Numbered from the stretch's first letter, positions 3-24,027 are shown. The stretch is 25,876 nucleotides of DNA from a virus (IMGVR_UViG_3300009091_000054:1-25876), one strand, 5' to 3'. Numbers and translations: made by a program. Notes: generated by a model from the letters alone, not told the origin.

Positions 3-1979
3 GGTAATCAAGGCACTCAAGGAATACAAGGTCAGTCAGGTACTTCACAAGGAACACAAGGTACGCAGGGTCCTCAAGGAACACAAGGTACGCAGGGTAT
101 ACAGGGTACGCAGGGTATACAGGGTAATCAAGGAACGCAAGGTATTCAAGGACAAAGTGGTACAAGTCAGGGTACTCAAGGCATACAGGGTAGCCAAGGT
201 ACTCAAGGTATACAGGGAAACCAAGGTACTCAAGGTATACAGGGAAACCAAGGTACTCAAGGAGTACAAGGTCAATCAGGTACAAGTCAGGGAATACAAG
301 GAATACAAGGACCTCAAGGTACTACCGGACTGCAAGGAAATCAAGGTACACAGGGTACTCAAGGTATTCAGGGTAACCAAGGTACACAGGGTATTCAAGG
401 ACAAAGTGGTACAAGTCAAGGTATACAAGGCATTCAAGGACCACAAGGAACTACCGGACTGCAGGGAAGTCAAGGTACTCAAGGTATTCAAGGTCCTCAG
501 GGCACGCAAGGTATTCAAGGACAGTCGGGTACAAGTCAGGGAATCCAAGGTATACAAGGACCTCAAGGTACTCAAGGTATTCAAGGTAGGCAAGGTACTC
601 AAGGTATACAGGGAAACCAAGGAACACAGGGTATACAAGGACAGTCAGGTACATCACAAGGTACGCAAGGTATTCAAGGAAATCAAGGTACGCAAGGAAT
701 ACAGGGAAATCAAGGTACTCAGGGAATACAGGGAAATCAAGGTACTCAGGGAATACAAGGTCAGAGTGGAACGTCCCAAGGTATACAAGGTATTCAAGGT
801 CCACAGGGAACTCAAGGAATACAAGGCAGACAAGGTACTCAAGGCATACAAGGTAACCAAGGTACTCAAGGCATACAGGGTCAGTCAGGTACTTCACAAG
901 GCATTCAAGGTATACAGGGTAACCAAGGTACTCAAGGTGTACAGGGTAACCAAGGAACTCAAGGTGTACAGGGTAATCAAGGAACTCAAGGTATTCAAGG
1001 GCAATCAGGCACTTCTCAGGGTATACAAGGGATACAAGGACCACAAGGAACTCAGGGTATACAGGGACGCCAAGGAACTCAGGGTATACAGGGTAATCAG
1101 GGTACACAAGGTGTTCAAGGACAAAGTGGAACATCTCAAGGTATACAAGGCATCCAAGGTCCTCAAGGTACTCAAGGTATACAGGGTAACCAAGGCACTC
1201 AAGGTATACAGGGTAACCAAGGCACTCAAGGTATTCAAGGTCAAAGTGGGACAAGTCAAGGCATACAGGGTATTCAAGGTCCACAGGGTACTCAAGGTAT
1301 TCAAGGTAGACAAGGAACCACCGGATTACAAGGTAATCAGGGTACACAAGGAATACAAGGACAGAGTGGAACATCTCAAGGTATTCAAGGTATACAGGGA
1401 CCTCAAGGAACTCAAGGTATACAAGGCAACCAGGGTACTCAAGGAATACAAGGTAATCAGGGTACACAGGGTATTCAGGGACAGTCAGGAACTTCACAAG
1501 GAATTCAAGGTATACAGGGACCTCAAGGTACTCAAGGTATACAGGGTAGACAAGGAACTACTGGATTGCAGGGTAATCAAGGAACTCAAGGTATACAAGG
1601 GCAGTCGGGAACAAGTCAAGGAATTCAAGGAATACAAGGTCCTCAAGGAACACAAGGTATACAGGGTAGACAAGGAACACAGGGTATTCAAGGCAATCAA
1701 GGAACTCAGGGTATTCAAGGTCAATCAGGAACCTCACAAGGTATTCAAGGTATACAAGGTCCTCAAGGTACTCAAGGTATTCAGGGACGTCAAGGAACTA
1801 CTGGATTACAAGGTAATCAAGGCACTCAGGGTATACAAGGTCAATCAGGTACGAGTCAAGGTATTCAAGGTATACAAGGTCCACAAGGTACTCAAGGCAT
1901 ACAAGGTAATCAAGGCACTCAAGGCATACAGGGAACTACCGGAACTGGCACGCAAGGTATACAAGGAACAACTGGAGGG
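3..1979 (+). repeat. 120-bp tandem super-repeat (collagen-like, 40 codons)
   Basis: The interruption motif Gly-Thr-Ser-Gln-Gly recurs with its first Gly codon at 39, 159, 279, 408, 528, 648 and then every 120 bases to 1848, giving 16 copies. Only the 279-to-408 interval differs (129 bases, three extra triplets). Each unit is 13 Gly-X-Y triplets plus one inserted Gln, which shifts the triplet register once every 40 residues. Units differ mainly at synonymous third positions (caa/cag, ggt/gga/ggc), so the protein pattern is being kept while the DNA diverges. Confidence 0.93.
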
Positions 1980-4364
1980 ACTCCCATTGATGGTACTTTA
2001 TTAGATTGGGATTCTACACATTATGATCCTTATACAGCTAATGCAGCAGGTAGGTTTTCTACTCAGGTTGCAGATCCTACAAATACAACAAGACTAAATT
2101 ATGATGGTTATTTTTATGCCACCAAATTATATTCGGCAGGGACTGAAGTTTCTGTAATAGGGCATACCCATACATATCTTCCACTGGCAGGAGGTACAAT
2201 GGCTGGTACACTTGCAATGGATGATCATCCCATAACATTTAATTACGCTTCAACAGGTACTCGTTGTATTGATATTAATGCAGGAAACAGAGATGTTAAT
2301 ATATGGGAGGTTTCGGATGCAGGAACATATAATAATGGATTTTATTTGCAATATGTAGGTACTGGTACATTAGCAAATAACAATCTGGAACTTTATACCC
2401 ATAATCAAGCCGGAACGGATATAAAGGTTTATACCGTTACACAAGATGGAGGATTTACCTTTCAAAGCAGTCTTGTCAATTTTAGTGCTTCTACCTATAC
2501 TTGGTTTTATGGGCCAACCTATATCATAGGTTCTTATTTTGATACACCTCTGGGCTATATGGAGGAAGGAGCTGATACCCAAAGGTTAGGATTGGAATAT
2601 AATAATTTATGTCTTGTTGATTATGTTTACAGACATTCAGATCCAACGGGAGTTTCGGGTTCAACTTATCCTACGTTATGGATATACTCTAATGCTGATC
2701 CAGCATCAAGTACGCAGAGCCTTAAATTATATCATAATACTACTAATGGAATCATAACCACAGGAGCGGGAGGGTTAAGTATATCTTCATTTTCAGGTTC
2801 TGTTTATATAACGGGACTTGGTTCTGATGAAGCAGAAACCTATGTAGTTGCTATTGATAATAGTACTGGTTTACTTACAAAAAGGTCAGTGGCTTCTATG
2901 GGTGGAGGTGGTAATGTTTCAAATACAGGAACTCCTTTAGATAATCAGATTGCTGTGTGGACATCAGCAACTGTTATTGAAGGTACCACTGGTCTTACTT
3001 TTGCAAGTAGTATTTTGACTGTTGCAACCACAATGAATATTGCTGCGGGAACTATTACTTATTCGGATGATTCTTATATTCAATTACAATCCAGTGAAAT
3101 AGATTTTTATACAGGAACAACTCCTGCTATCAGAGGTTACTGGGCTGCCGGAGGTCTTTCAATATCAGCAACTGGAGGATTATATGTTGATCACATTTAT
3201 GAGATGTCTGGTGCTCATGGTGTTAGTATTGAGGATGTGGTTTATCTTACAGCACTTGGATCTGATGAAACAGAAACCTACGTGGTTGCTATTGATAATA
3301 GTACAGGGTTACTGTCAAAAAGATCAGTTTCTTCACTTGGTGCTGGCGGTGGAGTGTCAATGGATGAATCAACAAATGGATATATTTGTACGGTTGAATC
3401 GGCAAATCATATTACAGGAGAATCCACTCTTACATATGATGGAACTACCTTTTTTCAAACCAAATCAGGGACAGCATCTTCTTTTGGGATGTTATTTGGG
3501 TATAATCTTACCACAGCACAAGGAACAAAATTTCTTTATGATGCCGACGATGAGAGTATGACCATTTCTGGTCGTCATGGTTCAATAGATTATGGGGCCA
3601 TAAAAATTTACGATTATCCTACTGAAATTGGAATATCTGTATCATTAGAGTATAATACAGCAGCTAAAATAAACATTACTGCTACAGGGTTTACCATGTA
3701 TGGTGATATGAACATATATGGGGATTCTGCCAGACAAATAGGAATGCAAAATGCTCCTGCATCTACAGCAGGAGGAAATTTGACTATCATAGCAGGAACA
3801 GCAGTAACGGCTAATTATGCAGGTGGGCATTTATATCTTAAAGGAGGAAATGCAGTAGCTACTGCTCAGTCCGGTCATGTTTATATTAGAGGAGGAACTG
3901 TAAGTACGGCAGGTAATGTTATGTTAGCTTATGACGGTACTGCTTATGGATATGTAGGAATCAGGACTACCGCTTCTACATCTTATGGTCTTTACGTAAG
4001 TGGTGCTATTTATGCTACAGGTAATATTACTGCTAATTCCGATATACGGTATAAACATGATGTTAAGAATTTAACAGGTGTTCTTGGAGAGCTTAATAAA
4101 ATTAATCCAATAACTTTTAGATACGATGAAGAGGATTCTGATGAGTTACACGCAGGATATAATGCTCAGGAAATTGAGAAAGTATTTCCGTTTATTTCCA
4201 AATATGATCCTGAGAAAGATAGGTTAGGATTGAAACATCTGGGATTGGAAGCTATGAATACAGTCGCTATTAAGGAATTAAAAATTGAAAAAGACGAAGA
4301 TATTCAATCACTTAAATTAAAGATTGATGAGTTAGAAAAAGAAATTAAACAATTAAAAAATTAA
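3..4364 (+). CDS. Giant collagen-like tail fibre with C-terminal S74 chaperone (5' partial)
   Basis: Likely the receptor-binding tail fibre. The reading frame is open from base 3 with no start in the window, so the N-terminus is missing. Bases 3 to about 1980 encode Gly-X-Y triplets, mostly with Gln in the Y position (GIQ, GTQ, GNQ, GPQ). A beta-rich shaft follows, including GHTHTYLPLAGGTM, a motif common in phage fibres, and two copies of a GSDE-x-ETYVVAIDNSTG element. The last 108 residues are a peptidase S74 intramolecular chaperone: NSDIRYKHDV holds the expected Ser (codon 4038-4040) and the Lys five residues later, followed by GYNAQEIEKVFP and a C-terminal coiled coil. Established for this family: the chaperone trimerises the fibre and then cuts itself off before the Ser. 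The internal ATG at 1566 lies in mid-repeat and is not the start. Confidence 0.95.
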   Translation, partial: GNQGTQGIQGQSGTSQGTQGTQGPQGTQGTQGIQGTQGIQGNQGTQGIQGQSGTSQGTQGIQGSQGTQGIQGNQGTQGIQGNQGTQGVQGQSGTSQGIQGIQGPQGTTGLQGNQGTQGTQGIQGNQGTQGIQGQSGTSQGIQGIQGPQGTTGLQGSQGTQGIQGPQGTQGIQGQSGTSQGIQGIQGPQGTQGIQGRQGTQGIQGNQGTQGIQGQSGTSQGTQGIQGNQGTQGIQGNQGTQGIQGNQGTQGIQGQSGTSQGIQGIQGPQGTQGIQGRQGTQGIQGNQGTQGIQGQSGTSQGIQGIQGNQGTQGVQGNQGTQGVQGNQGTQGIQGQSGTSQGIQGIQGPQGTQGIQGRQGTQGIQGNQGTQGVQGQSGTSQGIQGIQGPQGTQGIQGNQGTQGIQGNQGTQGIQGQSGTSQGIQGIQGPQGTQGIQGRQGTTGLQGNQGTQGIQGQSGTSQGIQGIQGPQGTQGIQGNQGTQGIQGNQGTQGIQGQSGTSQGIQGIQGPQGTQGIQGRQGTTGLQGNQGTQGIQGQSGTSQGIQGIQGPQGTQGIQGRQGTQGIQGNQGTQGIQGQSGTSQGIQGIQGPQGTQGIQGRQGTTGLQGNQGTQGIQGQSGTSQGIQGIQGPQGTQGIQGNQGTQGIQGTTGTGTQGIQGTTGGTPIDGTLLDWDSTHYDPYTANAAGRFSTQVADPTNTTRLNYDGYFYATKLYSAGTEVSVIGHTHTYLPLAGGTMAGTLAMDDHPITFNYASTGTRCIDINAGNRDVNIWEVSDAGTYNNGFYLQYVGTGTLANNNLELYTHNQAGTDIKVYTVTQDGGFTFQSSLVNFSASTYTWFYGPTYIIGSYFDTPLGYMEEGADTQRLGLEYNNLCLVDYVYRHSDPTGVSGSTYPTLWIYSNADPASSTQSLKLYHNTTNGIITTGAGGLSISSFSGSVYITGLGSDEAETYVVAIDNSTGLLTKRSVASMGGGGNVSNTGTPLDNQIAVWTSATVIEGTTGLTFASSILTVATTMNIAAGTITYSDDSYIQLQSSEIDFYTGTTPAIRGYWAAGGLSISATGGLYVDHIYEMSGAHGVSIEDVVYLTALGSDETETYVVAIDNSTGLLSKRSVSSLGAGGGVSMDESTNGYICTVESANHITGESTLTYDGTTFFQTKSGTASSFGMLFGYNLTTAQGTKFLYDADDESMTISGRHGSIDYGAIKIYDYPTEIGISVSLEYNTAAKINITATGFTMYGDMNIYGDSARQIGMQNAPASTAGGNLTIIAGTAVTANYAGGHLYLKGGNAVATAQSGHVYIRGGTVSTAGNVMLAYDGTAYGYVGIRTTASTSYGLYVSGAIYATGNITANSDIRYKHDVKNLTGVLGELNKINPITFRYDEEDSDELHAGYNAQEIEKVFPFISKYDPEKDRLGLKHLGLEAMNTVAIKELKIEKDEDIQSLKLKIDELEKEIKQLKN
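2815..3336 (+). repeat. Duplicated fibre-shaft element within the tail fibre gene
   Basis: Two in-frame copies of about 27 codons, near 2818-2898 and 3256-3336, encode LGSDE(A/T)ETYVVAIDNSTG followed by LL(T/S)KRSV and then a Gly-rich stretch. The copies start 438 bases apart. They look like repeated beta-structured shaft modules joined by flexible glycine linkers. The second-copy codons differ from the first, so the duplication is not recent. Confidence 0.8.
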
Positions 4365-5149: not shown

Positions 5150-5455
5150 ATGAAAATTAAAGTTAATGAAACATTCAAAGGCATTGATGGTATTCAACCA
5201 TTACCCAGTGAAACTGGAAGAGTCCTTGCTTTGAAGGACATTTGTATTAATGCCATTCTCACACCTGAAGAAAAGGATGATGAGAAAAAGAAACTTGAAA
5301 AGTATAGCATCTTCAAAAAACTTCGGGCCTCTTCGGAGGATGTTGTACTAACTGCTGAAGAGATTACTATAATTAAACGGTCCATAGCCAGAGTCTACGC
5401 TCCGCTTATCATGGGACAAGCCTTCGAAATGCTGGAAGAGAATCATCATGCTTAG
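5150..5455 (+). CDS. Small conserved phage protein
   Basis: A 101-residue charged, mostly helical protein. It has the arrangement LKDICINAIL ... LTAEEITIIKRSIARVYAPLIMGQAFEML, which resembles a small protein widespread in tailed phages. I know of no established function for it. The start is preceded by an A/T-rich 33-base gap (5117-5149) with no Shine-Dalgarno motif, a pattern usual in Bacteroidota. The stop is TAG, which shows TAG is used as a terminator in this genome. The gene overlaps the next by 8 bases. Confidence 0.7.
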   Translation: MKIKVNETFKGIDGIQPLPSETGRVLALKDICINAILTPEEKDDEKKKLEKYSIFKKLRASSEDVVLTAEEITIIKRSIARVYAPLIMGQAFEMLEENHHA

Positions 5456-7124
5456 GGAGCTTTGTAAAGAAACATTACTGCAGGGCGGTGATATTTCTCC
5501 TGTTGTTATTCCGGCAGGCCATACAGGTGGCACCACATTAATGAACCCTTCCGTCTTTGTGTGGGACGGAAGGATCATTGTTAATGTACGTCATGTGAAT
5601 TATGTTTTATATCATTGTGAAGGGGATGAATTATTCTACCATAGATGGGGACCACTGGTTTATATTCACCCTGAGAACGATGTTACTCTTACCACTAAAA
5701 ATTATATTGCTTTCTTTCATGACAATCTTGAAATGACAGGGTTTGCCAAAGTGGAAACAGATAAGTTGGATACAAAACCCATGTGGGACTTCATTGGTTT
5801 GGAAGATGGTAGATTAGTAAAATGGGATGGCAAATTATTTCTGAGTGGAGTCAGAAGAGATGTTAAAATCGGAGGAGAAGGAAGAATGGAACTCTCAGAA
5901 TTAATTACCAAAGATTGTAGAATGTTTGAGGTTACAAGAATGCGCATTGAAGTACCTGAAGGAGAAACTTCTTATTGTGAAAAGAATTGGATGCCGGTTC
6001 TTGATATGCCATACCATTATGTTAAATGGTGCAATCCTACACAATTGGTTAAGGTAGATCCCTTTACAGGAAAATCTAAAGAGGTTTACAAATGTAAATA
6101 TACAATACCTGGCTTACCTGACTTTAGAGGAGGCTCTCAGGTTATTCCATGGAAAGGCTATCATATAGCAATGATTCACCAATCCTATTTGTTTAACAAT
6201 CAAATTGGACAAAAGGATGGAGATTACTCTCATAGATTACTTGTCTGGGATAAGGATTGGGATTTGATCCATGTAGGTGAACCTTTTAAGTTTATGACTG
6301 GTTCAATCGAGTTTTGTTGTGGGATGGATTTCTTTAAGGGTGATCTTCTTGTTTCATTTGGCTTCCAGGATAACGCTTCATACTTATTACGTATTCCAGA
6401 AGATAAGGTTGAATCTCTGTTTAATTTGAAGTACCTTGATTTTAAGTGGGGTATATTCAAAAAGGATCCAGAGTTCTTCTACAATGTTAAACAGGAGTTA
6501 TTTGAAAGAGATATTTACCAGATGATCTTTCCAGTAGAGGAAGGAGATGTGGTTGTTGACATTGGGGCAAGTTGTGGTCCATTCACACGGATGGCATTGG
6601 ATAAAAATCCAAAGCATATCTACAGTATGGAACCCAATAAGGAATTGAGTGTAACCATGGAGGAGAACTTTGCAGATAATAAAATTGTTACTGTTATTAA
6701 CAAAGGTATTGCAAGTAACGATGGTCCATTTATATTTGAAAATGTTTATGAACCTCTAACTAATCACAAGTTCTGGGAAAAAGCCAATGGTGAAGGAATC
6801 TCCCTTAAAACATTTATTAAGGAGTATGGAATTAAGAATATTGATTTTCTAAAGATTGATTGTGAGGGAGGGGAGTATGATTTCTTTAATGATGAAAATT
6901 TGGAATGGATCTTAAAACACGTTAAGAAGATTTCTGCGGAGATTCATTTACTTGATGAGCCAATGATGTTTAAATATAGTAGATTCAGGGATATTTATCT
7001 TTCTAAGTTTCAAGAGTATGAAGCTTACACCTATGATGGTTCTCAGAATCTTACTAAGGATATCCTTACAGATGAATTTGCCAAAACACCACGTTATTTC
7101 ATGCTTTATATTGACAACCGATGA
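5448..7124 (+). CDS. GH130-like beta-propeller fused to FkbM-family methyltransferase
   Basis: A 558-residue two-domain enzyme. Residues about 25-335 look like a five-bladed propeller of the GH130/mannoside-phosphorylase type: NPSVFVWDGR at 33-42, GLEDGRLVKWDGKLFLSGVR at 117-136, EKNWMP at 178-183, RGGSQVIPWKG at 227-237 and EFCCGMDFFKGDLLVSFG at 288-305. Residues about 345-555 are an FkbM/Methyltransf_21 SAM-dependent methyltransferase with VVVDIGASCGPF (SAM-binding loop) and FLKIDCEGGEYDFF. FkbM enzymes O-methylate sugars and natural products. The propeller may bind or process a glycan that the second domain methylates. The gene overlaps the next by ATGA, implying coupled expression. The methyltransferase assignment is strong and the propeller assignment moderate. 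Confidence 0.8.
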   Translation: MLRELCKETLLQGGDISPVVIPAGHTGGTTLMNPSVFVWDGRIIVNVRHVNYVLYHCEGDELFYHRWGPLVYIHPENDVTLTTKNYIAFFHDNLEMTGFAKVETDKLDTKPMWDFIGLEDGRLVKWDGKLFLSGVRRDVKIGGEGRMELSELITKDCRMFEVTRMRIEVPEGETSYCEKNWMPVLDMPYHYVKWCNPTQLVKVDPFTGKSKEVYKCKYTIPGLPDFRGGSQVIPWKGYHIAMIHQSYLFNNQIGQKDGDYSHRLLVWDKDWDLIHVGEPFKFMTGSIEFCCGMDFFKGDLLVSFGFQDNASYLLRIPEDKVESLFNLKYLDFKWGIFKKDPEFFYNVKQELFERDIYQMIFPVEEGDVVVDIGASCGPFTRMALDKNPKHIYSMEPNKELSVTMEENFADNKIVTVINKGIASNDGPFIFENVYEPLTNHKFWEKANGEGISLKTFIKEYGIKNIDFLKIDCEGGEYDFFNDENLEWILKHVKKISAEIHLLDEPMMFKYSRFRDIYLSKFQEYEAYTYDGSQNLTKDILTDEFAKTPRYFMLYIDNR

Positions 7125-8347
7125 AAACGACATTAATCAATTATGTACATCACCCCTACGATCCTCAAGCTAATTTTGCCTTAGGTAAAAAATATGAGGA
7201 CGCAGGTCAGAACTCTGCTGCAATAGCATATTATTTGCGGACTGCAGAATTTACCAGTAACAATGTTTTATCCTACGAATGTTTACTAAGAATGGCAGTA
7301 TGTATAGAGAGACTGGGTAATAGGTGTCATTCAACCAAAGGAATACTGTTGAGAGCAATATCTTTGTTTCCGGAACGACCTGAGGCATATTTCTGGTTAG
7401 CCAAGGTATATGAGAAAACTCAGGAATGGTCTGAGTGTTATGGTATTTCCTGTATTGGGGAACATTTTGCCAAAGGAGACTTCCCATTACTGAAAACAGA
7501 TGTGAGTTATCCAGGTCCTTTCTTCTTTAAGTTTCAGAAAGCCCTTTCGTGTTGGTGGATTGGATTATTTGCATACTCAATTCGTCTATTTAAAGAACTG
7601 AGGGATACTCCTGGCATTCCGTTCGAATATGCACAGGCTGTAAATAATAACCTGAAGAACTTGGGCAATGGTAGTAAAAAGATTACGAAATATGAGCAAA
7701 GCCATTATCAGGATTTGAGACTCAAGTTTCCTGGAGCAGATACGATAGTTGATAATTTTTCTCACGCCTTTCAGGATATGTTTGTCCTTACAATGCTTAA
7801 AGGAAAACAAAATGGCAAGTGGCTTGAGATTGGATGTGGTGATCCTTGGTGGGGAAATAATACCTTCCTGCTTGAAAGACACTTTGGTTGGTCTGGAATA
7901 TCTATTGATATAAGTCCGGAACTGACAAAGAGATTTGAAATGTTTCGTAAGGCGGAGGTAATAACTGGAGATGCAGCAATGATAGATTATGAAAACCTGC
8001 TTGATGGTGATTATGATTACCTTCAGCTGGATTGTGAGCCGGCAGATATAACCTTTAGAGCCTTACAGAAGATACCTCTTCAGTTCCATAAGTTCGCCGT
8101 AATTACATTCGAGCATGATTGGTTCGCTGACGATAACAAGGCGGTTAGAGAGGAGTCCCGCAGATATTTAAAGTCATATGGTTATGAATTAGTTGTTACA
8201 AACATCTCACTTGATTGGTGGGGAGAGTCAGAAGATTGGTGGGTACATCCAGACTTAGTGGATCGTGAAATAATTAAAAAAATGACTTATCACTCAGAAA
8301 CGTCAGTTCCTGCAAATAGATATATGTATAATAGACTTAATACTTAA
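7121..8347 (+). CDS. TPR-domain protein with C-terminal methyltransferase
   Basis: A 408-residue protein. Residues about 12-185 form helical tetratricopeptide-like repeats (ANFALGKKYEDAGQNSAAIAY; then PERPEAYFWLAKVYEKTQEW). Residues about 230-400 are a class I SAM-dependent methyltransferase with KWLEIGCGDPWWG at 233-245, an acidic strand-2 end GISIDIS, and DYLQLDCEPA near 300, a layout close to FkbM enzymes. TPR regions usually mediate protein contacts, here perhaps recruiting a glycosyltransferase or the propeller enzyme encoded just upstream by the overlapping gene. The Trp-rich segment WWGESEDWWVHP near 366-377 is unusual. Substrate is unknown; modification of a sugar on the virion or host surface is inference. 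Confidence 0.8.
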   Translation: MKTTLINYVHHPYDPQANFALGKKYEDAGQNSAAIAYYLRTAEFTSNNVLSYECLLRMAVCIERLGNRCHSTKGILLRAISLFPERPEAYFWLAKVYEKTQEWSECYGISCIGEHFAKGDFPLLKTDVSYPGPFFFKFQKALSCWWIGLFAYSIRLFKELRDTPGIPFEYAQAVNNNLKNLGNGSKKITKYEQSHYQDLRLKFPGADTIVDNFSHAFQDMFVLTMLKGKQNGKWLEIGCGDPWWGNNTFLLERHFGWSGISIDISPELTKRFEMFRKAEVITGDAAMIDYENLLDGDYDYLQLDCEPADITFRALQKIPLQFHKFAVITFEHDWFADDNKAVREESRRYLKSYGYELVVTNISLDWWGESEDWWVHPDLVDREIIKKMTYHSETSVPANRYMYNRLNT

Positions 8348-8350
8348 AAT

Positions 8351-8980
8351 ATGGCTACTGATAAAAAGTTTGTAAATGGATTAATTACAGGGTTGGTAAT
8401 TGCAGCCTTGTTTGTTTCTTTCTATGTAGGATATAGAGTACATAAATGTCCTCCGACAGGTCAGATTCTATTATCTCAAGCAGTTTGGGATTCTATAAAG
8501 GCACTTGCGGATAAACCACCAACAGTACATATAGATACTGCTTGGGTAGAGAAGCCTGTGGTAATTCCTGATCCACAACCTCCTTTGCCTGATCCGCAAG
8601 TTGTTTCTCCTGATACTGTTGAGTATGCAGATAGTTTGGTCAATAAAGAGATTAATGTATGGTATGATTTTAAAGTGAAGGGGACTCTATTGGAAAGGAC
8701 TTGGAGTTACAAGCCTATTACCTTAATTATAAAGGAGGTTGATTCCATTCCTTACCCTGAGATTGAAGAGAAACCAGTACCTTATGTAGACTATAAAAAT
8801 GGTCTTTACATTTACGGTCTTGCGGGAGGCAATGCTAAGGCATTTTTATTTGGTGCAGGAGTAGATTATATATCAAAGAAGAATACAGAGTTTGGTTATT
8901 TATATCAGCGATATGGTAAAGAGAATTTTCATTCTCTTAAAGTGGGAGTAAAATTCAGAATACTCGGTTTTCCAAGGTAA
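8351..8980 (+). CDS. Inner-membrane-anchored protein with proline-rich linker and beta-rich C-terminus
   Basis: A 209-residue protein with one N-terminal membrane segment (about residues 9-28, LITGLVIAALFVSFYVGYRV), a Pro-rich stretch at about 70-100 (PDPQPPLPDPQ), and a C-terminal portion of alternating hydrophobic/polar residues (LYIYGLAGGNAKAFLFGAGV ... SLKVGVKFRI) like porin-type beta hairpins. Topology is N-in with the bulk in the periplasm. A single-protein spanin or another envelope-spanning lysis factor is a possible role, because it joins an inner-membrane anchor to an outer-membrane-like end. No conserved spanin motif is visible. It is the last gene of the plus-strand block and its final 26 bases overlap the opposing gene. 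Confidence 0.7.
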   Translation: MATDKKFVNGLITGLVIAALFVSFYVGYRVHKCPPTGQILLSQAVWDSIKALADKPPTVHIDTAWVEKPVVIPDPQPPLPDPQVVSPDTVEYADSLVNKEINVWYDFKVKGTLLERTWSYKPITLIIKEVDSIPYPEIEEKPVPYVDYKNGLYIYGLAGGNAKAFLFGAGVDYISKKNTEFGYLYQRYGKENFHSLKVGVKFRILGFPR

Positions 8981-9302
8981 GGGTCACATCTATGTATTTC
9001 CAATAATATCCTTGTCGGGTACAGGAGCCCCGTAGGACGGCAGAATATAATCCAGTTTCTTTAAAACCTGTCTTTTTGGCTGCTTCCCGTAAACTGCCAA
9101 ACTCGTTTAATAATGTGCCTTCTTTATTAAACTGCCCTATTCGTTTTTTATGATGAGCACACAATTCCTTCCGTGCCTGTTCCCATCCTACCACAAACAT
9201 TCTTTGTAGGTGTGCCTGGACATAAGGAAAATATTCAGTAGGAAGGAATTCTTCCATTTTTATGGAAAGCATCATTTTGCTTATGGCTCTATGTTGTTCC
9301 AT
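8955..9302 (-). CDS. NUMOD1-type DNA-binding domain protein
   Basis: A 115-residue protein whose C-terminal half, about residues 51-102, matches the NUMOD1 modular helix-turn-helix of homing endonucleases: KRIGQFNKEGTLLNEFGSLR, EAAKKTGF, then a Gly-Tyr-Tyr-Trp-Lys end. The N-terminal half is helical and shows no HNH or GIY-YIG nuclease motif, although a partial helical motif with CAHHKK at about 48-53 is present. It may be a stand-alone DNA-binding protein or a remnant of a homing endonuclease. It is the last gene of the minus-strand operon, overlapping the upstream Rad50 C-half gene by 14 bases and the convergent plus-strand gene by 26. Confidence 0.75.
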   Translation of the reverse strand: MEQHRAISKMMLSIKMEEFLPTEYFPYVQAHLQRMFVVGWEQARKELCAHHKKRIGQFNKEGTLLNEFGSLREAAKKTGFKETGLYSAVLRGSCTRQGYYWKYIDVTLTLENRVF

Positions 9303-9909
9303 ATGATTGTACCTGAGTTATTCCTTTCTCAATTTTTACTCCAAATATCTTATCGGCATATGAAGCTAATGTAGGATTATGAGCAACGATTATAAATTGA
9401 ATTCCAAGTTTGTCTGATATTTCTTTTATCATTTGGGAGGCCTTTTCTTGATACTCTCTTGATAAAAAGCGTAAAGGTTCATCTAAGATAATTGTATTTC
9501 TTGTTCTTGGGCGTGTCATACTCCATGAGGCTATCCTTAAAGCAAAAGCAGCGACGTCAACAGCACCGCCTCCGGAGGCAGTGAGAGGGTCTACCTTGCT
9601 GCCATTCCTTTCAAAGTAGAGGTCACATTCTGTTTTATTACGTCGCTGCACAAATTCAACGGTTAAGTTGTATGGATCATTGAATACTGCTTCAAGGGCA
9701 AGGGAGGTTATATCTGAGATGTGATATTGTAACTGTTGTTGAGTCTTTAAACCCACTTCACGTACTATCTCCCTTGCTCTTTCATGTCGAAGCAAAGAGT
9801 GTTTAGCAACTCTTAATTCTTCTTTTAAGGTATTTAAACCTTGAATGAGTTGAAATCTTTGCCCTTTCTCTTTCTCAAGTTTATACCTGAGTTGTTGAAT
9901 ATCATTCAT
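9289..9909 (-). CDS. Rad50/SbcC-like ATPase, C-terminal half (gp46-like)
   Basis: A 206-residue protein carrying only the C-terminal lobe of a Rad50/SbcC/gp46 ATPase. Residues 1-65 are coiled coil. The signature motif is TASGGGAVDVAAFALRIA at about 110-127, Walker B is IILDEPLRFLS at 140-150, and the H-loop is IIVAHNP with His177. It has no P-loop. The missing N-terminal lobe with P-loop and zinc hook is encoded separately at 11830-12882. Together the two halves total 556 residues, about the size of intact T4 gp46 (recalled as near 560). A stop codon lies directly before this ATG in frame, so the short start is real. The SbcCD complex processes DNA ends for recombination-dependent replication. 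Confidence 0.88.
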   Translation of the reverse strand: MNDIQQLRYKLEKEKGQRFQLIQGLNTLKEELRVAKHSLLRHERAREIVREVGLKTQQQLQYHISDITSLALEAVFNDPYNLTVEFVQRRNKTECDLYFERNGSKVDPLTASGGGAVDVAAFALRIASWSMTRPRTRNTIILDEPLRFLSREYQEKASQMIKEISDKLGIQFIIVAHNPTLASYADKIFGVKIEKGITQVQSYGTT

Positions 9910-9964
9910 TTACTTCTACTATTAATTCTCCACTACCTGTAAATTCTGCTGAATAAGAAAATTT

Positions 9965-10198
9965 CTACGTTCCATACTTTTCCTCCAATTCTTTTAAACC
10001 TTCCTTGATTTTATTATCTATCGTAATCATATCTTTATTCATTTTCTTACTCAGTTTTTCAGCTTCTTCTATAGAATTACACCCCCAATCTTTTTTGAGT
10101 TGTTTCATTAAGGTGGTTAGCTGTCCTTTTAATTCAGATGTAGCAGTTTTTGCTGCATCTATCTCCTGTTTTAATTTAAGTAAACCTGCTTCATTCAT
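9965..10198 (-). CDS. Small coiled-coil protein in the SbcCD cluster
   Basis: A 77-residue, almost entirely helical protein with heptad-like spacing (LLKLKQEIDAAKTATSELKG, then LTTLMKQLKKDWGCNSIEEAEKL and a second helix to the end). It resembles short coiled-coil proteins found beside recombination ATPases in other phages, recalled from memory. It sits between the two halves of the split Rad50 and overlaps the upstream gene by ATGA. Because the C-terminal Rad50 half has a much shorter coil than the N-terminal half, this protein could complete the coil. That is an inference. It ends in TAG and is followed by a 55-base gap. Confidence 0.72.
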   Translation of the reverse strand: MNEAGLLKLKQEIDAAKTATSELKGQLTTLMKQLKKDWGCNSIEEAEKLSKKMNKDMITIDNKIKEGLKELEEKYGT

Positions 10199-10434
10199 CT
10201 CCTTTGAAGTATTACAGTAAATTCTCTTGCCTGCTCGTCTGTTATTATTCTTTCCTCACGTAACTGGCGAGCATAATCCGCACGATATGATGGATGCATA
10301 TTTCTTAATAATATTATCCAATCCATTTCTTTAACAGCTTCTCTCAGGTACTTATTGCAAGCAACAACCCAAGATTCCAGTTCTTTCCTTAATGCTGTTT
10401 TTCTCTCATTCCTTAATTTTTCTTCTGTTGTCAT
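10195..10434 (-). CDS. Small hypothetical protein in the SbcCD cluster
   Basis: A 79-residue charged, helical protein of unknown function (TTEEKLRNERKTALRKELES at the start, then a central Trp-rich helix and YRADYARQLREERIITDEQA). There is no membrane segment or recognisable motif. It overlaps both neighbours by ATGA, placing it in one translational unit with the Mre11-like nuclease upstream and the coiled-coil protein downstream. Context suggests an accessory factor of the recombination complex. Confidence 0.7.
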   Translation of the reverse strand: MTTEEKLRNERKTALRKELESWVVACNKYLREAVKEMDWIILLRNMHPSYRADYARQLREERIITDEQAREFTVILQRR

Positions 10435-11345
10435 AGTTCAATAGATTTATAAATTATATTCATAATTGATTCCCGAACATCGTTCGTTCGTTTAAATTCC
10501 TCAAGATTTTGTTCAAAAGATACACCAGCGTCCCAATCTTTATCTAATCTACTTATAAAGGCTTCAATTCGTTTGTCTCTTTGAACCTCTCTATCCAGAT
10601 GTTCCCTGCTTATTACTCCTTCCTTGATTGGAATATAAACCGCTTTCACACTATTAGTTTCTTCATACCATAGAAAGACCCTTGGCCTGTAGTTTATTTG
10701 ATCCGCCTTTTGTCTGGTTAATGAACCTGGATTAACCAATAATCTACCTTCATAAGTATCATAAAAAGATTGATGATTATCACCTGTTACTATTAAGTCA
10801 TATTGAGGGTATTTGCGAAGGATTCCTTTAGCTTGCCCATCTTTTGCTCCCGGGAATGGAGGAATAACATAGGTTAAATGATGCCAAACAAGGATCTTCC
10901 TTTTATAATTCATTGGAAAGAATGTATCACTTGTCTCCCACCAAACTGAATCAAATAGATCTCCTTTTGGTTCCTGTCCATAATGACATCCGTTCAATAC
11001 CTTTAATTTTCCAGCTGCCTTTAATACATCTATTCCACATTTATCTGTTAATTCCAGATTATGCTGAGGTAAGTCATGCTGTCCATAGACTGTATAGAAT
11101 TGATCAGGTAAATGTTTTATTGTCATTCTTAATAACCAAGGTGACGGTTTCCAGTGATTAAATAAGTCTCCAGCATGAATTACAATACAATTATATTCCC
11201 TTTGCAACCTGGAGATGAAATCTACACCTGTCCATTGTTCTTCTTGAAAGTCCCCTATCCAACAAACGGGAGTATCTTCCCGTAGGTGAAAGTCACTACA
11301 AAAGATAATGGACGGGTACCTTTTATTTACCTTCGTTCTTTCCAT
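10431..11345 (-). CDS. SbcD/Mre11-like nuclease (gp47-like metallophosphoesterase)
   Basis: A 304-residue calcineurin-like phosphoesterase, the expected nuclease partner of the split Rad50 ATPase. Metal-binding motifs are in order: FCSDFH with Asp18 and His20, HAGDLF with Asp60, YGQHDLP at 87-93, WHHL with His155/156, and VTGDNH with His191, then NPGSLTR. The third motif has Gln where most family members have Asn (GNHD); I recall GQHD in other phage members, so activity is probably kept. The C-terminal 70 residues are a helical tail. The protein begins MERTK, like several other genes here. It lies between the two Rad50-half genes and overlaps its downstream neighbour by ATGA. Confidence 0.9.
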   Translation of the reverse strand: MERTKVNKRYPSIIFCSDFHLREDTPVCWIGDFQEEQWTGVDFISRLQREYNCIVIHAGDLFNHWKPSPWLLRMTIKHLPDQFYTVYGQHDLPQHNLELTDKCGIDVLKAAGKLKVLNGCHYGQEPKGDLFDSVWWETSDTFFPMNYKRKILVWHHLTYVIPPFPGAKDGQAKGILRKYPQYDLIVTGDNHQSFYDTYEGRLLVNPGSLTRQKADQINYRPRVFLWYEETNSVKAVYIPIKEGVISREHLDREVQRDKRIEAFISRLDKDWDAGVSFEQNLEEFKRTNDVRESIMNIIYKSIEL

Positions 11346-11347
11346 TA

Positions 11348-11827
11348 TTATTTAACTCTCCAACATCTTACAATACCTTCCTCTTTCAAGGTACGTATCA
11401 CAAATTTGTATTCTGGATGAACCCTGCGGAAATGTCCAGCCCCACCGCTTATAGTTGAGCCTACGTTCTTGGCATAAGGTACTTTAAAAGAATCTCCCAC
11501 TTCCATCTTTGAGAAAGGATAGCGAGAGCCTTTAGGAATATGCACAGGAATGGGTATATCCTTTTCTACTTCATATTCAATCTTTTCTTCCATTTGTTTA
11601 GGTTTTGTTTTTTTAATTGCTTCTTCTAATTCTTTCCAGTCATATAATTTATCCCATACTTTTTGAGAGACTACTTTCCAATAGCTTGGATTTTTAATCC
11701 AAGAGACATGAACTGTTTTACAGGATAACTGTTTTGCTACATCCGCACCGGATAGGTTTTCCTCTTCGATTATTCTAATAAGAAAATCGGCAAGTGTTCT
11801 TCGTGCATTCTCATCAAATGTTCTCAT
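11348..11827 (-). CDS. Phage protein with helical N-terminus and YPF...VGDSF domain
   Basis: A 159-residue protein. Residues about 5-70 read as a helical, possibly helix-turn-helix region (LADFLIRIIEEENLSGADVA, then VAKQLSCKTVHVSW). A charged linker follows, then a C-terminal module of about 55 residues, RYPFSKMEVGDSFKVPY ... HFRRVHPEYKFVIRTLKEEG ... CWRVK. The YPF-x-M-x-VGDSF pattern is one I recognise from many small phage proteins of unknown role (possibly the DUF7303 family, from memory). It is spaced 2 bases from each neighbour, between the Rad50 N-half and Mre11-like genes. Confidence 0.7.
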   Translation of the reverse strand: MRTFDENARRTLADFLIRIIEEENLSGADVAKQLSCKTVHVSWIKNPSYWKVVSQKVWDKLYDWKELEEAIKKTKPKQMEEKIEYEVEKDIPIPVHIPKGSRYPFSKMEVGDSFKVPYAKNVGSTISGGAGHFRRVHPEYKFVIRTLKEEGIVRCWRVK

Positions 11828-11829
11828 AA

Positions 11830-12882
11830 TTATTTAGGTTTACCACATAACGGACACTCGTTAGGAAATACTCTTTTGAATTCTGCCTGCATCTTTATAA
11901 GATTTGCCTTAACAGTAATAACCTGTCCGTTTGTATTGTTTATGTTATTAAGTAATAGACTCAGGCTGCTTTTATTTATTTTCAGTATATTTATATCCTT
12001 GTATAGTTGTAACAAACTTTCAACAAGATTTTCTATAGATATTAATTGTCTATGTTTCTTTATTTTTTTCTTGGACTCTTCGATCCACTTCATTAAAAAT
12101 AATAACTTGCCTCCCTCTCTACCAATGTCCTCTTTCTGATCAATTAGATGATATATTTTATTTACCGTTTCTTCTCCTTCAAGTAAATCATCGTAAAGGG
12201 CAATCTCTTCTGTTACCTCCTGTATGTTTGTTAAAACGGATCTTAACTTCTTCTCCCGTTTAAATTTGTTGAGAAATTGGATTTGTAAGGATTCTAATAC
12301 CTCAATTTCTGTTTCAAATGTATCAAGATATGCAAAACTTTCTATCTCTTCTTTCTTTGATTCAATTTCATCCGTTTTGTATTTAATGGTATGTTCTAAC
12401 TCACGTATCCATCGATTAATATTCTGGATGCTTAAGTCAATTTTATCAAGTCTGGCTACCTTGTTAAAATGTTGAGCAACCTCTCCTGCACTCTTGCTTA
12501 GGAGGAAAGAGTTATCATGTTGCTGTTGGAGATTAATTTCATTGATGTTGAGAGAGCTACGGACTTCTTCCGGAACTGAAGCACCAAAAGCCTTAAAGAC
12601 CAGTGGTTTTTGTCCCACGTTACGAAGGCTATATTTATCAGTCTTACCCTTACTCCTAAGAATGATAGCTTCATCTGTCTCCAGTCGCACGCTTGTCTTA
12701 CCACCCCATGTCGATCGTATTGCACTGCCAGAAGGTCTATTCCATATAAGCCAACGAATAGCTCTGATAATTGATGTTTTTCCGCTGTCCGTTTGTCCAA
12801 CAATGATATTAACTCCCGGCGAGAAATCAAGGGTTGTTTCTTCATGACTTTGAAAGTTTTGTATCTTAATTGCTGTTATCAT
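11830..12882 (-). CDS. Rad50/SbcC-like ATPase, N-terminal half ending at zinc hook (gp46-like)
   Basis: A 350-residue protein carrying the N-terminal lobe of a Rad50/SbcC ATPase. It starts with the typical ITAIKIQNFQSHEETTLDF strand, then the P-loop GQTDSGKT at 29-36 and a Q-loop region EINLQQQHDNSFLLSKS at about 115-131. A long coiled coil spans about 150-335. The protein ends immediately after a zinc-hook CPLC motif (Cys343, Cys346) followed by only GKPK. In intact Rad50 the hook sits in the middle of the coil and the chain returns to the second ATPase lobe. Here that part is a separate gene at 9289-9909. The gene overlaps its upstream neighbour by 17 bases. Confidence 0.9.
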   Translation of the reverse strand: MITAIKIQNFQSHEETTLDFSPGVNIIVGQTDSGKTSIIRAIRWLIWNRPSGSAIRSTWGGKTSVRLETDEAIILRSKGKTDKYSLRNVGQKPLVFKAFGASVPEEVRSSLNINEINLQQQHDNSFLLSKSAGEVAQHFNKVARLDKIDLSIQNINRWIRELEHTIKYKTDEIESKKEEIESFAYLDTFETEIEVLESLQIQFLNKFKREKKLRSVLTNIQEVTEEIALYDDLLEGEETVNKIYHLIDQKEDIGREGGKLLFLMKWIEESKKKIKKHRQLISIENLVESLLQLYKDINILKINKSSLSLLLNNINNTNGQVITVKANLIKMQAEFKRVFPNECPLCGKPK

Positions 12883-16815: not shown

Positions 16816-17871
16816 TTAACGTTTTGGTTTTCTTTCTATTTCGGATCTACGTTCTATCTTTTCCCATAAAGTAATCACCTGTTCCTTGAGTTCTTCTTCA
16901 AGTCCTTGGTCCTCTACTTTGTGTATGGAATCCTCCAGAGAGACACCTAATTTCCTGTCATTTATCATATATACCTTATTCTTGGTATGATCTTTAATAA
17001 ATTGAAGATTTTGGCGTATATCATCTATACCATAGTTAAATAAAATGGTAACAGGTGCTGTACGGAATGGTTTCCAAATAGAACTCTTAAATACTTCTAT
17101 CAATACTTCAACTCCAATAACTCTCTGGACTGTCTTTTTACCTATTGTAAGCTTTGGACCTTTAATCTTTTCAGGCTTATTAAATCTCAGGCGTAAACTG
17201 GAATAAAAACCAAATGCTTCTCCACCTGGAGTATTGTACTTTTGATAGGACATAGGATCTACATTTACTCTGACCTGATTGCTACACACCATCAAATAAT
17301 TTTTCTTTGCAATGATGCGACAAGTTTTTCTTAACTGCTCACTGAACTCTTTAGCACGTCTCATCCCCATCTTATCTCCTTCTGCCTTATCCATTTCCAT
17401 CTCTGTAGATAGGGCAGCAGTAGAGTCTGCGAAAACACCATTTATTGCTTTTTTAACACCTTCTGGTTTCCAGTTTCGGACACCTGTAAAGACTTCATTA
17501 ATTGTATTTGGTTGAGAATAGTTCTCTTTCTTGAGTTCTAATCCAAACATCCGAGCAAAAGGTTTATTTAATCGAGCCTCTGGATCTTCAAACTTAACAT
17601 CCCCTCCTTTTCTCTGTACATCACCCGCAATCTCTGATAGTAATACTGTCTTGCCCGACCCACTTGGTCCAAATGCCTCTACTAATATGCCTCCGGGCAG
17701 TCCTCCTCCTCTGACTCTCCCGCCTGATATGGCGAGATCCAATAACGTAGACCCTGTACTAATAACAGTCCCAAAGTCTCCATCGTACTCTTTACGACTA
17801 ATCTTGGTAGGATTGTTTACTTTCTTTTTCAGTTGAGAACTGAGTGGTATTATCTTTTTTGTTCGTTCCAT
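16816..17871 (-). CDS. uvsX: UvsX/RecA-like recombinase
   Basis: A 351-residue RecA-family strand-exchange ATPase. It has the RecA entry motif STGSTLLDLAISGG (38-51), Walker A GPSGSGKT (68-75), FEDPEARL for the catalytic Glu, a Walker B region GVFADSTAAL, and a loop-1-like segment with GDKMGMRRAKEFSEQLRK. SNQVRVNVDP and NTPGGEAFGFYSSLRLRF correspond to the L2/DNA-binding region. Length is near T4 UvsX (about 390) and Escherichia coli RecA (353). With the gp32-like, UvsY-like and gp46/47-like genes it gives a recombination-dependent replication set. Its first 22 bases overlap the upstream ribbon-helix-helix gene, and it begins MERTK. Confidence 0.93.
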   Translation of the reverse strand: MERTKKIIPLSSQLKKKVNNPTKISRKEYDGDFGTVISTGSTLLDLAISGGRVRGGGLPGGILVEAFGPSGSGKTVLLSEIAGDVQRKGGDVKFEDPEARLNKPFARMFGLELKKENYSQPNTINEVFTGVRNWKPEGVKKAINGVFADSTAALSTEMEMDKAEGDKMGMRRAKEFSEQLRKTCRIIAKKNYLMVCSNQVRVNVDPMSYQKYNTPGGEAFGFYSSLRLRFNKPEKIKGPKLTIGKKTVQRVIGVEVLIEVFKSSIWKPFRTAPVTILFNYGIDDIRQNLQFIKDHTKNKVYMINDRKLGVSLEDSIHKVEDQGLEEELKEQVITLWEKIERRSEIERKPKR

Positions 17872-21113: not shown

Positions 21114-22505
21114 TCATAAAATCGTATACTTCTTTTTTTCAGCCCAATTTCCATCTATTGGACACAATTCCATCTCTATATCCATGGGAACGATAATCCA
21201 AGGCCAAGCCTTTACTAAATCCTTACAGGTAATTCTTTTCATCATTTGAACAATCGTTGGAAGTTCTTTTGGGTTGATATCGAGGATGATTGCATCATGT
21301 ATCTGTCCTACAAGTCTGGTATCCCAACCTTGTTTTCTGATAACCTCATCCATCTTTACAAAAGACCAAAGTAAACAATGAAAGGCTGCTCCTTGAACAG
21401 GATAATTAATAACCTGTTTCTTATCCATTACACCACCACATCTGAATCCTGTAAGTAAATCTACATATCCTTGCTTCTTATAAAGAGTGTACCATCTATC
21501 TTTCCATTGAGCATATTCATAAAATCTATTACTCCAAAAATCATCCTCTATCTTTCTCAGATGTTCTGTAAAAGCATTAAAAGAAGGAAGACCTTTACTA
21601 ATAAGATGATCTGATAAATTTCCTTTTGGCATTGGAATACCTTCCCCAGGTTTCCATTTACCTTGAGATAGTTTCCCCCAATTACAAACCAGATTAGGTG
21701 CACAGTTTTTATAATAGTCCCCATAAAACTCTGGAAATATAAAACCATTCTTGGCTGCTTGTCTAAGTGTATAATGTTCAGGTATGTTTTTATCAAATTT
21801 ATTTACCTTAAATATTTGCTTAGCCATATCTGTGTGCATATCGGACGTAGGGTCTTTAATGTACCTAAGCATTGTGCTGTCTTTGTGGTAACAGGCAGCA
21901 ATTCTAACTTCAAGTCCTGAATAATCTACTTCAAGTAATTGGTGCCCTGGACGTGGAAGTAAGGCTCTTCGAACTATTCGCATCGACTCTTCATCCCTTT
22001 TAGGTATGTTTTGAAAGTTAGGATGATCAGAACTCGATCTATATGTCTGTACTAAATGTAGATTAAAGAAGGGATGAATATATCCCCTAATTTGTTCTCT
22101 TTCAAATATCTCCAGATAGTCCCTTATTTTTTTCATCTTCCTAATCTCTAATAAGGTTAACAACTCAGGAATATTTGACTTTTGTAAAGCTTCATCATCT
22201 ACAGACCCTTGTCCAGAGATTGTTTCCTTTTCGACCTTTATTTTCTTAATCTTATAAAGGAAGTGAGATAATTGTATAGGTGAATGTATATTAACGATTC
22301 CTCTTGTGGTATGTTGCCAATGCTTAAAGAGAGAACTCTCCTTAAACTCCTCCTCAAGAACTTCCATCTCTCGATTTAGTTTACGAATTTTCCTGGTAAC
22401 ATATTCCATGTTAATACGTATTCCTTGCTCTTCTGCCCTGGCAAGTGCTAATATCCCATCATGGAACAGTTTGTAAGCTTCTTGTGTACGTGGGTTATAT
22501 GTCAT
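21114..22505 (-). CDS. Family A DNA polymerase, polymerase domain only
   Basis: A 463-residue polymerase with palm/fingers/thumb motifs but no 3'-5' exonuclease. SSDHPNFQNIPKRD lies at about 158-171, motif A LLEVDYSGLEVRIAA has Asp194, motif B RQAAKNGFIFPEFYG has Arg248 and Lys252 in the O-helix, and motif C is VGQIHDAIILD (His403, Asp404). Motif C reads HDA where Pol I has HDE, a change I recall from other phage polymerases. The motif B to C spacing is normal. Proofreading is presumably supplied by the separate UDG-exonuclease protein two genes upstream. The gene overlaps its upstream neighbour by ATGA. Confidence 0.94.
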   Translation of the reverse strand: MTYNPRTQEAYKLFHDGILALARAEEQGIRINMEYVTRKIRKLNREMEVLEEEFKESSLFKHWQHTTRGIVNIHSPIQLSHFLYKIKKIKVEKETISGQGSVDDEALQKSNIPELLTLLEIRKMKKIRDYLEIFEREQIRGYIHPFFNLHLVQTYRSSSDHPNFQNIPKRDEESMRIVRRALLPRPGHQLLEVDYSGLEVRIAACYHKDSTMLRYIKDPTSDMHTDMAKQIFKVNKFDKNIPEHYTLRQAAKNGFIFPEFYGDYYKNCAPNLVCNWGKLSQGKWKPGEGIPMPKGNLSDHLISKGLPSFNAFTEHLRKIEDDFWSNRFYEYAQWKDRWYTLYKKQGYVDLLTGFRCGGVMDKKQVINYPVQGAAFHCLLWSFVKMDEVIRKQGWDTRLVGQIHDAIILDINPKELPTIVQMMKRITCKDLVKAWPWIIVPMDIEMELCPIDGNWAEKKKYTIL

Positions 22506-22777
22506 GCTTTCTTAATAAATACGTGACCAACAAACCAATCTTTTTGATATGTTCCTATGTAGACGAGTTTTTCACTGGTTATCTCCTCAGGAATTCTATT
22601 TCCAGTACCAAGAGTAACGATTTTTACTTTTTCTGTTTTATCACTTGGTGTACAGAAAGCCCATATTACAACTTCTCCATTCTGGATTTGAACAGTTTGT
22701 AATATTTTAGATTCAGCAGGCATTATGAGTTCTTGTTCATCACTAATGCTTAATGTAAATTTGTAAATTGTTTTCAT
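22502..22777 (-). CDS. Small beta-rich phage protein between exonuclease and polymerase genes
   Basis: A 91-residue beta-rich protein (IYKFTLSISDEQELIMP, then ILQTVQIQNGEVVIWAFCTP and a GTGNR-IPEE turn, ending FVGHVFIKK). The pattern IYK...mP...iL.vq.Q...vvlWa...GTG matches a small family common in phages (possibly DUF7352, from memory) without a known function. It separates the two gene products that in other phages form one polymerase chain, overlapping the polymerase start by ATGA and lying 2 bases from the UDG-exo gene. Confidence 0.72.
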   Translation of the reverse strand: MKTIYKFTLSISDEQELIMPAESKILQTVQIQNGEVVIWAFCTPSDKTEKVKIVTLGTGNRIPEEITSEKLVYIGTYQKDWFVGHVFIKKA

Positions 22778-22779
22778 GG

Positions 22780-24027
22780 TTAAAAAGGTAAAATGTCTAA
22801 TCTTTGTTTCTGTGCTAATCTGTACTCGTAGATACTATCATATCCACAGTATGTTAAGAGTTTTTTCTTGCCTCCAGGTCTTCGTAATAAATCAAAGATC
22901 TTATTTAAGGCATTTGCATTAGAACTGTCTGTTGATGTTAAATATGAAGCAATCTCACTGGCATAATCTACAATACCAAATTGGACATAGACTTGAAACT
23001 TTAAACTGGTTATTCCAGGTCTATTATCAAATACATGAGTAGCAATCATAGTGTCCCACACCCAAGGAGATATTTCTATCTTTAATCTTGTTTGAGACCA
23101 AGCGTGTTCATACTTCATATTTTGAGCAATCTTTCCTACATTAGGATCCGTCAATAAACGTATAAGAGGTTTCAATTCTTTCCTTGATTCGGGCATCATA
23201 AAAACATAACACCTGTCTGCTTCATATGCAACTGACGTACAGACAATTCTGTGTCCTGGAGCATGAGATTTGATTCCTGTTGTTTCATAATCAAAAGCAA
23301 TCTCACCTTTCTTTATTGTGTCAAGCACACGTAAATCATTTACAATTTCTATTTGTGGTTCTTTATGTAAAGAAAAAGGAACATCTTTTCTTGAGTAATT
23401 AACAATCTGTTCTAAGTCTTGGCACCAAATTGTATATTCCACACCGTAGGTACCTTGGTGTCCCGTAGAAGCGGATCTTTCAACATAACTTGGATGAAAT
23501 GTAGGACACAACCAAGTCTTAAAATCTTGATCTGGTATAGCCCATCCTCTCCATTTTGTAATGCCTCCCAAATCCTTTTTCCAGCGATGCCCGATAAGGC
23601 TAAAGACAGCCTGATTTCCAAATAAGGCAATTACCCTTGGCTTGTGCTCCTCTATTACTTTTAAAACTGATCTACGGCAGCATTCAGCCTCATAGTTAGT
23701 AGGAGCCCTGTTATATCCATCCTTGTCCACAGGGCGGCAATTAACAGTATTGATATTAAGACAATCTTCAAATAAATCAATGCCAAGTTTTTTATATACC
23801 TTCTGAAGTAATTGTCCTGTCCTACCTTGCCATGGTTTGCCTGTTTTGTCTTCTATCTCCCCTGGAGCCTCACCAATATTAAGTATCTTCTTTTTAAAGT
23901 TACCATAAGGTTTCATTTTTGGGGAACGACAGTCTTTATATAAGCCACAAGATGCACAAGAGTAAGTCTTTCCATCCGGTCGAGACTTAGACTCGACTTC
24001 TTTCTTTGAGAAAAATCCTTCTGTCAT
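22780..24027 (-). CDS. Uracil-DNA glycosylase (family 4 type) fused to 3'-5' exonuclease
   Basis: A 415-residue two-domain protein. Residues about 20-205 are a family 4-type Fe-S uracil-DNA glycosylase: Cys24-x2-Cys27, motif 1 GEAPGEIEDKTGKPWQGRTG (52-71), NTVNCRP with Cys97, a further Cys at 116/117, and HPSYV at 178-182. Residues about 225-415 are a DnaQ-like proofreading exonuclease with exo I FDYETTG (Asp246, Glu248), exo II QNMKYEHAW (Glu307 at the usual Asp position), WDTMIATHV (Asp325) and YCGYDS (Asp397). SPO1-like phages carry UDG, exo and pol on one chain; here the polymerase is a separate gene. The gene end overlaps the clamp stop by one base. Confidence 0.88.
   Translation of the reverse strand: MTEGFFSKKEVESKSRPDGKTYSCASCGLYKDCRSPKMKPYGNFKKKILNIGEAPGEIEDKTGKPWQGRTGQLLQKVYKKLGIDLFEDCLNINTVNCRPVDKDGYNRAPTNYEAECCRRSVLKVIEEHKPRVIALFGNQAVFSLIGHRWKKDLGGITKWRGWAIPDQDFKTWLCPTFHPSYVERSASTGHQGTYGVEYTIWCQDLEQIVNYSRKDVPFSLHKEPQIEIVNDLRVLDTIKKGEIAFDYETTGIKSHAPGHRIVCTSVAYEADRCYVFMMPESRKELKPLIRLLTDPNVGKIAQNMKYEHAWSQTRLKIEISPWVWDTMIATHVFDNRPGITSLKFQVYVQFGIVDYASEIASYLTSTDSSNANALNKIFDLLRRPGGKKKLLTYCGYDSIYEYRLAQKQRLDILPF

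Follow-up and report, generated by a model that had tools for sequence, protein, structure and literature searches.

The closest described relatives of the system analyzed here are the archaeal Rad50-Mre11 and bacterial SbcC-SbcD complexes, in which the Walker A motif and Q-loop lie in the lobe on the N-terminal side, the signature, Walker B motif, and H-loop lie in the lobe on the C-terminal side, a CxxC hook occupies the far end of the arm, and an adjacent gene encodes a metallophosphoesterase. The phage locus described below shares all these features but differs in that its system comprises three chains, the N-terminal arm is far longer than the C-terminal one, the hook sits at the end of a chain, and the signature reads SGGG or RGGG. 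None of the curated SbcC/Rad50 models reached its cut-off with these proteins: the best score was 69 bits versus the required 1000 (Rad50_Sulf), and the NCBIfam SbcC model TIGR00618 gave 19.5 versus a cut-off of 478.5. The gp46/gp47 pair of phage T4 is likewise a phage recombination ATPase with its nuclease, has a similar total size, and has the UvsX recombinase nearby; however, T4 gp46 is a single polypeptide. Separately expressed halves of the Rad50 head are represented by the crystal structures 1f2u, 1ii8, and 3qkr, in which the head is formed by N and C lobes on separate chains. Such constructs are laboratory truncations without the full arms or the hook, whereas the division seen here is natural.

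Other essential phage enzymes also exist as two chains. The products of nrdA and gene 43 have been split by homing endonucleases, but these splits are recent and intact relatives exist (PMC2988022), whereas here the whole family is split. A survey of jumbo phages (PMC7824862) describes split polymerase III and RNA polymerase, and the passages of that survey available to us mention no split SbcC. A search of open-access papers found no description of a split SbcC or Rad50. The two halves are nevertheless present in databases: PHROG 16465, annotated as “exonuclease,” contains relatives of the N-terminal half (N-half), and PHROG 15167, annotated as “ATPase,” contains relatives of the C-terminal half (C-half). 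These annotations, which gp32 and gp35 of Bacillus phage vB_BboS-125 carry as well, are silent on the two proteins being halves of one ATPase and on the third gene.

The window, i.e., the entire analyzed stretch of 25,876 nucleotides of the viral sequence IMGVR_UViG_3300009091_000054, carries on its minus strand a module transcribed in the order N-half (350 aa; 11830..12882), a 159-aa ORF (11348..11827), SbcD (304 aa; 10431..11345), a 79-aa ORF (10195..10434), a 77-aa protein referred to here as S (9965..10198), and the C-half (206 aa; 9289..9909). The SbcD/Mre11-type metallophosphoesterase matches Pfam Metallophos_2 (1.6e-10). The 159-aa ORF has no homologue in the other loci and is not part of the core, and the 79-aa ORF, with homologues in only six other loci, is accessory in a subset of phages. 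A UvsX/RecA-like recombinase is encoded upstream of the module on the same strand (16816..17871; Pfam RecA, 3.2e-35; PHROG 97, UvsX-like, 2.1e-44). The first-pass annotation had read this region as a Rad50/SbcC protein broken at the apex of its hook, with the partner nuclease encoded close by, a reading borne out by Rad50 profile matches of both halves and by the AlphaFold2 (AF2) model of the N-half. The positions, strands, and lengths that it gave for the halves agree with the sequence, as do their combined length of 556 aa and their separation by SbcD and three small genes. The split is no oddity of this phage, however, and proved to be an old trait of the family.

Elsewhere in the window, DNA polymerase is also encoded by two genes (21114-24027, minus strand), whose products align with successive portions of PHROG 17. 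One product (22780-24027) combines uracil-DNA-glycosylase-like and 3'-5' exonuclease parts, the other (21114-22505) is a family A polymerase domain, and a 91-aa ORF separates the two genes. Directly after the C-half, the minus strand encodes a NUMOD1/HNH-like ORF (8955-9302), probably a relic of a homing endonuclease, with homologues in four other loci. On the plus strand, two neighboring ORFs (5448-8347) encode a 558-aa protein that ends in an FkbM methyltransferase domain and a 408-aa protein that weakly matches a family of phage glycosyltransferases. A tail-fibre-like ORF (1566-4364, plus strand) begins with collagen repeats and ends with an endosialidase chaperone; its listed start overlaps an ORF at 157-2004 in another frame.

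The N-half consists of lobe I and a long ascending arm that ends at the hook. It matches Pfam AAA_23 (4.6e-16) and PHROG 16465 (3.8e-39), the profile of its relatives matches the Rad50 structure 3aux (E = 3e-14), and its AF2 model structurally matches Rad50. In this model (pLDDT 88, pTM 0.43), the head is followed by a nearly unbroken helix of 190 residues (helices 146-182 and 185-338), although single-chain AF2 models of long helices carry little information on packing. Within the Walker A motif (GQTDSGKT; 12775..12798, minus strand), Gly29, Gly34, and Lys35 are invariant among 60 N-half relatives, and the motif is detected in 146 of 150 N ORFs. The Q-loop residue Gln121 is also invariant, in keeping with lobe I of Rad50/SbcC.

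The zinc hook motif CPLC (codons 343 to 346; 11845..11856, minus strand) is followed by a stop codon four residues later, the C terminus reading ...NECPLCGKPK-TAA, just as had been noticed initially. Both cysteines, Cys343 and Cys346, are invariant among the N-half relatives. In 139 of the 142 complete relatives, from phages and Bacillota chromosomes alike, a CxxC motif lies 2 to 36 residues before the C terminus; the locus counts include some near-duplicate contigs, and 122 N representatives are left below 80% identity. Across all 58,967 family residues, only two further CxxC motifs occur, so that the terminal position is not due to chance. The hook is the sole conserved island of the distal arm. 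Its placement at the apex of the coil is that of the Rad50/SbcC hook, and it can be predicted to bind zinc.

The arm lengths in the window, about 196 residues in the N-half and about 65 in the C-half, are close to the values of about 185 and 65 suggested initially. Across the loci, the N arm spans 144 to 413 residues, whereas neither S nor the C arm changes in length. The N arms fall into length classes of about 144, 194, 245, and 300 residues, with steps near 50. Measured from a common anchor, the distance from head to hook in all N-halves is similarly quantized, at about 170, 217, 269, and 320 residues, as if the arm grew by modules of about 50 residues.

The C-half comprises a short arm and lobe II: a charged helix comes first, followed by the signature (ASGGG), Walker B (IILDEP), and the H-loop (AHNP), which upholds its initial description as a coiled-coil start with only these motifs. 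It matches PHROG 15167 (1.6e-26), a family itself of ∼211 residues, and this match gave an early hint that many C-halves exist as separate proteins. The profile of its relatives matches chain B of the Rad50 structure 3qkr (E = 1.6e-15). Among 43 C-half relatives, the Walker B acidic pair Asp143-Glu144 (9478..9483, minus strand) is invariant and His177 is nearly so, as expected of lobe II. The family signature is xGGG (SGGG or RGGG), not SGGQ or SGGE.

A search of IMG/VR with the N-half alignment returned 176 relatives, of which 80 were kept, and the same alignment retrieved 66 relatives, nearly all from Bacillota, from bacterial and archaeal assemblies. In the collected loci, the N profile matched 151 ORFs and the C profile matched 128, with no single ORF in the searched loci matching both. 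The search for other phages with a hook-terminal N-half and a neighboring C-half, which had been proposed on first inspection, thus found many, along with the Bacillota chromosomes. SbcD is present in 124 of the 125 loci that contain both N and C, and the order N-S-C holds in 124 of 124 loci. The arrangement N-SbcD-S-C is found in 59 phage loci, SbcD-N-S-C in 51 bacterial loci, and N-S-C-SbcD in 11; SbcD is therefore mobile, whereas N-S-C is fixed. Twelve further loci are consistent with this arrangement wherever the contig spans the genes, and in Bacillota the genes of the cassette overlap or nearly touch. Most Bacillota SbcD proteins carry the metal motif GHxH; in most phage SbcD proteins, it is GDxH.

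Complete phage genomes also encode N and C in separate ORFs, without a one-piece SbcC. In vB_BboS-125, the N-half gp32 ends with GGICPLCEQTHKGGGC; next come a gene with an AP2 domain, one for a helical protein of 78 aa, and the C-half gp35. The N-halves of Tunturi_5 and of the 485-kb phage LR745208 end near CGKC and CPVC, respectively, and each is accompanied by a separate C-half. In the Magritte phage, the halves are split and the hook is absent; no S was found near them.

The 77-aa ORF had been listed initially as a small gene between the halves, which it is; that it represents a conserved third component had been missed. Of the 125 loci holding both halves, 124 have S between them according to a profile seeded with 14 examples; in the remaining one, a phage locus that also has SbcD, S was not recognized. 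AF2 predicts two helices, at residues 3 to 38 and 43 to 75 (pLDDT 96), around the tip WGCNS; these near-equal helices and the four-residue turn suggest a helical hairpin. Foldseek searches with S returned nothing, and no homologue of known structure or function was found. Judging by sequence, S is under purifying selection, its pairwise dN/dS in bacteria being mostly 0.01 to 0.06, below that of N. In Bacillota pairs of comparable divergence, the median identities are 0.66 for the N head, 0.23 for the N arm, 0.61 for S, 0.36 for the C arm, 0.69 for the C head, and 0.62 for SbcD, so that S is about as conserved as the ATPase heads but the arms are not. In phages, the identity of S is 0.33, the same as that of the C arm. 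The frame of S in the window stays open for 19 codons past its TAG stop codon (9910-9964, minus strand), up to a TGA that overlaps the ATG of the C-half. Reading TAG as Gln would alter, among the main genes of the module, only the ends of S and the C-half; the resulting tail of S is not seen in close relatives, and such recoding was dismissed as a chance effect.

In ten genomes from a single order of Bacillota, one ORF carries a fusion of N and C (350 to 520 aa) that has no CxxC motif and in which the arm is gone or greatly reduced. Five of these ten loci also join SbcD, producing a single protein of 680 to 780 aa. No S was found near the ten fused loci, while SbcD is still present, and all eleven additional relatives from the fused-form search are split, with both the hook and S. 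In a midpoint-rooted tree, the fused loci form one clade nested within the split family, which makes the joint loss of S, arm, and hook a single evolutionary event. The fusions mark N, C, and SbcD as partners and connect S with the arm, with the hook, or with the split itself.

The split N-half is encoded in about 48 of the 299 analyzed Bacillota genomes, about a sixth (51 matches minus three of the fused or canonical form), and canonical SbcC is encoded in 120 (TIGR00618 at E 1e-12). The two forms occur together in one or two genomes versus about 19 expected; a Fisher test for this avoidance gave about 1e-9 to 1e-10, values that are too small because Bacillota genomes share ancestry. In the second co-occurrence search, two candidates were scored per genome. 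A closer look at ten split-bearing genomes showed that eight lack canonical SbcC; in the two that have it, the cassette takes the vB_BboS-125 form and would belong to a prophage. The split form thus seems to replace one-piece SbcC in Bacillota. The layout recA-sbcD-N-S-C-rny is found in 45 Bacillota loci, for example, in Alkalihalophilus pseudofirmus OF4, and RecA-like genes lie upstream of N in about 50 phage loci.

Several other explanations were considered. It is unlikely, if still worth serious attention, that S is simply the missing descending coil, left over from an ancestral one-piece gene that broke both at the hook and before lobe II, and that it pairs along the N arm between the short arm of C and the hook. 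The gene order N-S-C follows that of the corresponding parts of Rad50 in 124 of 124 loci, the shortest N arm (144 residues) is about as long as S and the C arm combined (about 140), and S is lost along with arm and hook. However, the N arm changes in steps of about 50 residues while S stays the same, S in Bacillota is conserved like the heads (61%) and not like the arms (23% and 36%), and AF2 predicts two helices with a turn instead of one long helix. Slightly more doubtful is the notion that S shares the operon but is a regulator in its own right, acting, for example, on SbcD or RecA, and no structural part of the ATPase. Although the strong conservation of S in Bacillota, similar to that of SbcD, and its position between recA and rny would suit such a role, S is absent exactly where N and C are fused and armless but SbcD is retained, and it stays between N and C wherever SbcD moves.

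Classification of the locus as an anti-phage or plasmid-defense SMC-like ATPase of the Lamassu LmuB, MADS mad3, or Gabija type, as opposed to a recombination enzyme, appears very unlikely. It is favored by weak PADLOC matches (the best being mad3, 2e-14, and LmuB, 1e-13), but these are partial and confined to the ATPase domain, and no PADLOC match was obtained for SbcD, S, or either of the two small ORFs. The best matches among solved structures are to Rad50, an Mre11-type partner is present in 124 of 125 loci, recA genes are neighbors, and the system seems to stand in for SbcC. A recent split by a homing endonuclease, like those in nrdA and gene 43 of T4-like phages, is more improbable still. 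The NUMOD1/HNH-like ORF adjoining the C-half and the AP2-domain gene between N and S in vB_BboS-125 would fit such an origin, but the split is also found in loci without such genes, a search for an intact close relative found none, all relatives being split, and split forms extend throughout the family tree, chromosomal operons included. Finally, the idea that a one-piece SbcC has been disrupted by a frameshift or an error in sequencing, or is decaying as a pseudogene, has nothing but the unusual break in its favor and can practically be discarded, given that the identical break is conserved in more than 130 phage and bacterial loci with intact ATPase motifs and low dN/dS. The conservation also excludes the sequencing error or missing segment that the first-pass annotation had named as fatal to its reading.

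The locus thus probably encodes a DNA-end-processing complex of the Rad50-Mre11 (SbcC-SbcD) type with an ATPase protomer made of three chains. In such a complex, N would supply lobe I and the ascending arm, ending in a CPxC half-hook, and C would supply the short descending arm and lobe II. Given that the heads are Rad50-like in both profile and fold and that lobes expressed as separate chains assemble in crystals, N and C can be expected to meet at a composite ATPase head, much as the truncated Rad50 halves do. Two N chains would then form a dimer by sharing one zinc ion via their terminal CPxC motifs. As the N arm varies in length while S and the C arm do not, S cannot simply make up the return strand that the long arms lack, and since it could fill the arm gap in the shortest class only, the arm lengths suggest that intermolecular coil pairing along the full length is at best partial. 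The fixed size of S, its high conservation, and its loss together with the split are better explained by a clasp docked at one site, where S would probably contact both the N arm and C and hold them together. SbcD would bind to the head and do the cutting, presumably in recombination, beside the UvsX/RecA recombinase.

It seems reasonably likely, albeit less firmly than the assignment of the locus itself, that these loci represent an ancient three-subunit class of Rad50, consisting of a half-hook N, a joining hairpin S, and C, which is found in phages and Bacillota and stands in for SbcCD beside recA, and that one bacterial lineage has secondarily shed the arm, the hook, and S and in some genomes fused the remainder to SbcD. 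A sizeable share of the Bacillota that the standard model scores as lacking SbcC have this split SbcC, which the curated models leave unnamed. Why Rad50 needs its arm and zinc hook has been asked for a long time, and the family offers ready-made comparisons for this question: a chain that is severed at the hook, an additional subunit that stays constant, arms that vary in steps of ∼50 residues, and a sister clade free of arm and hook.
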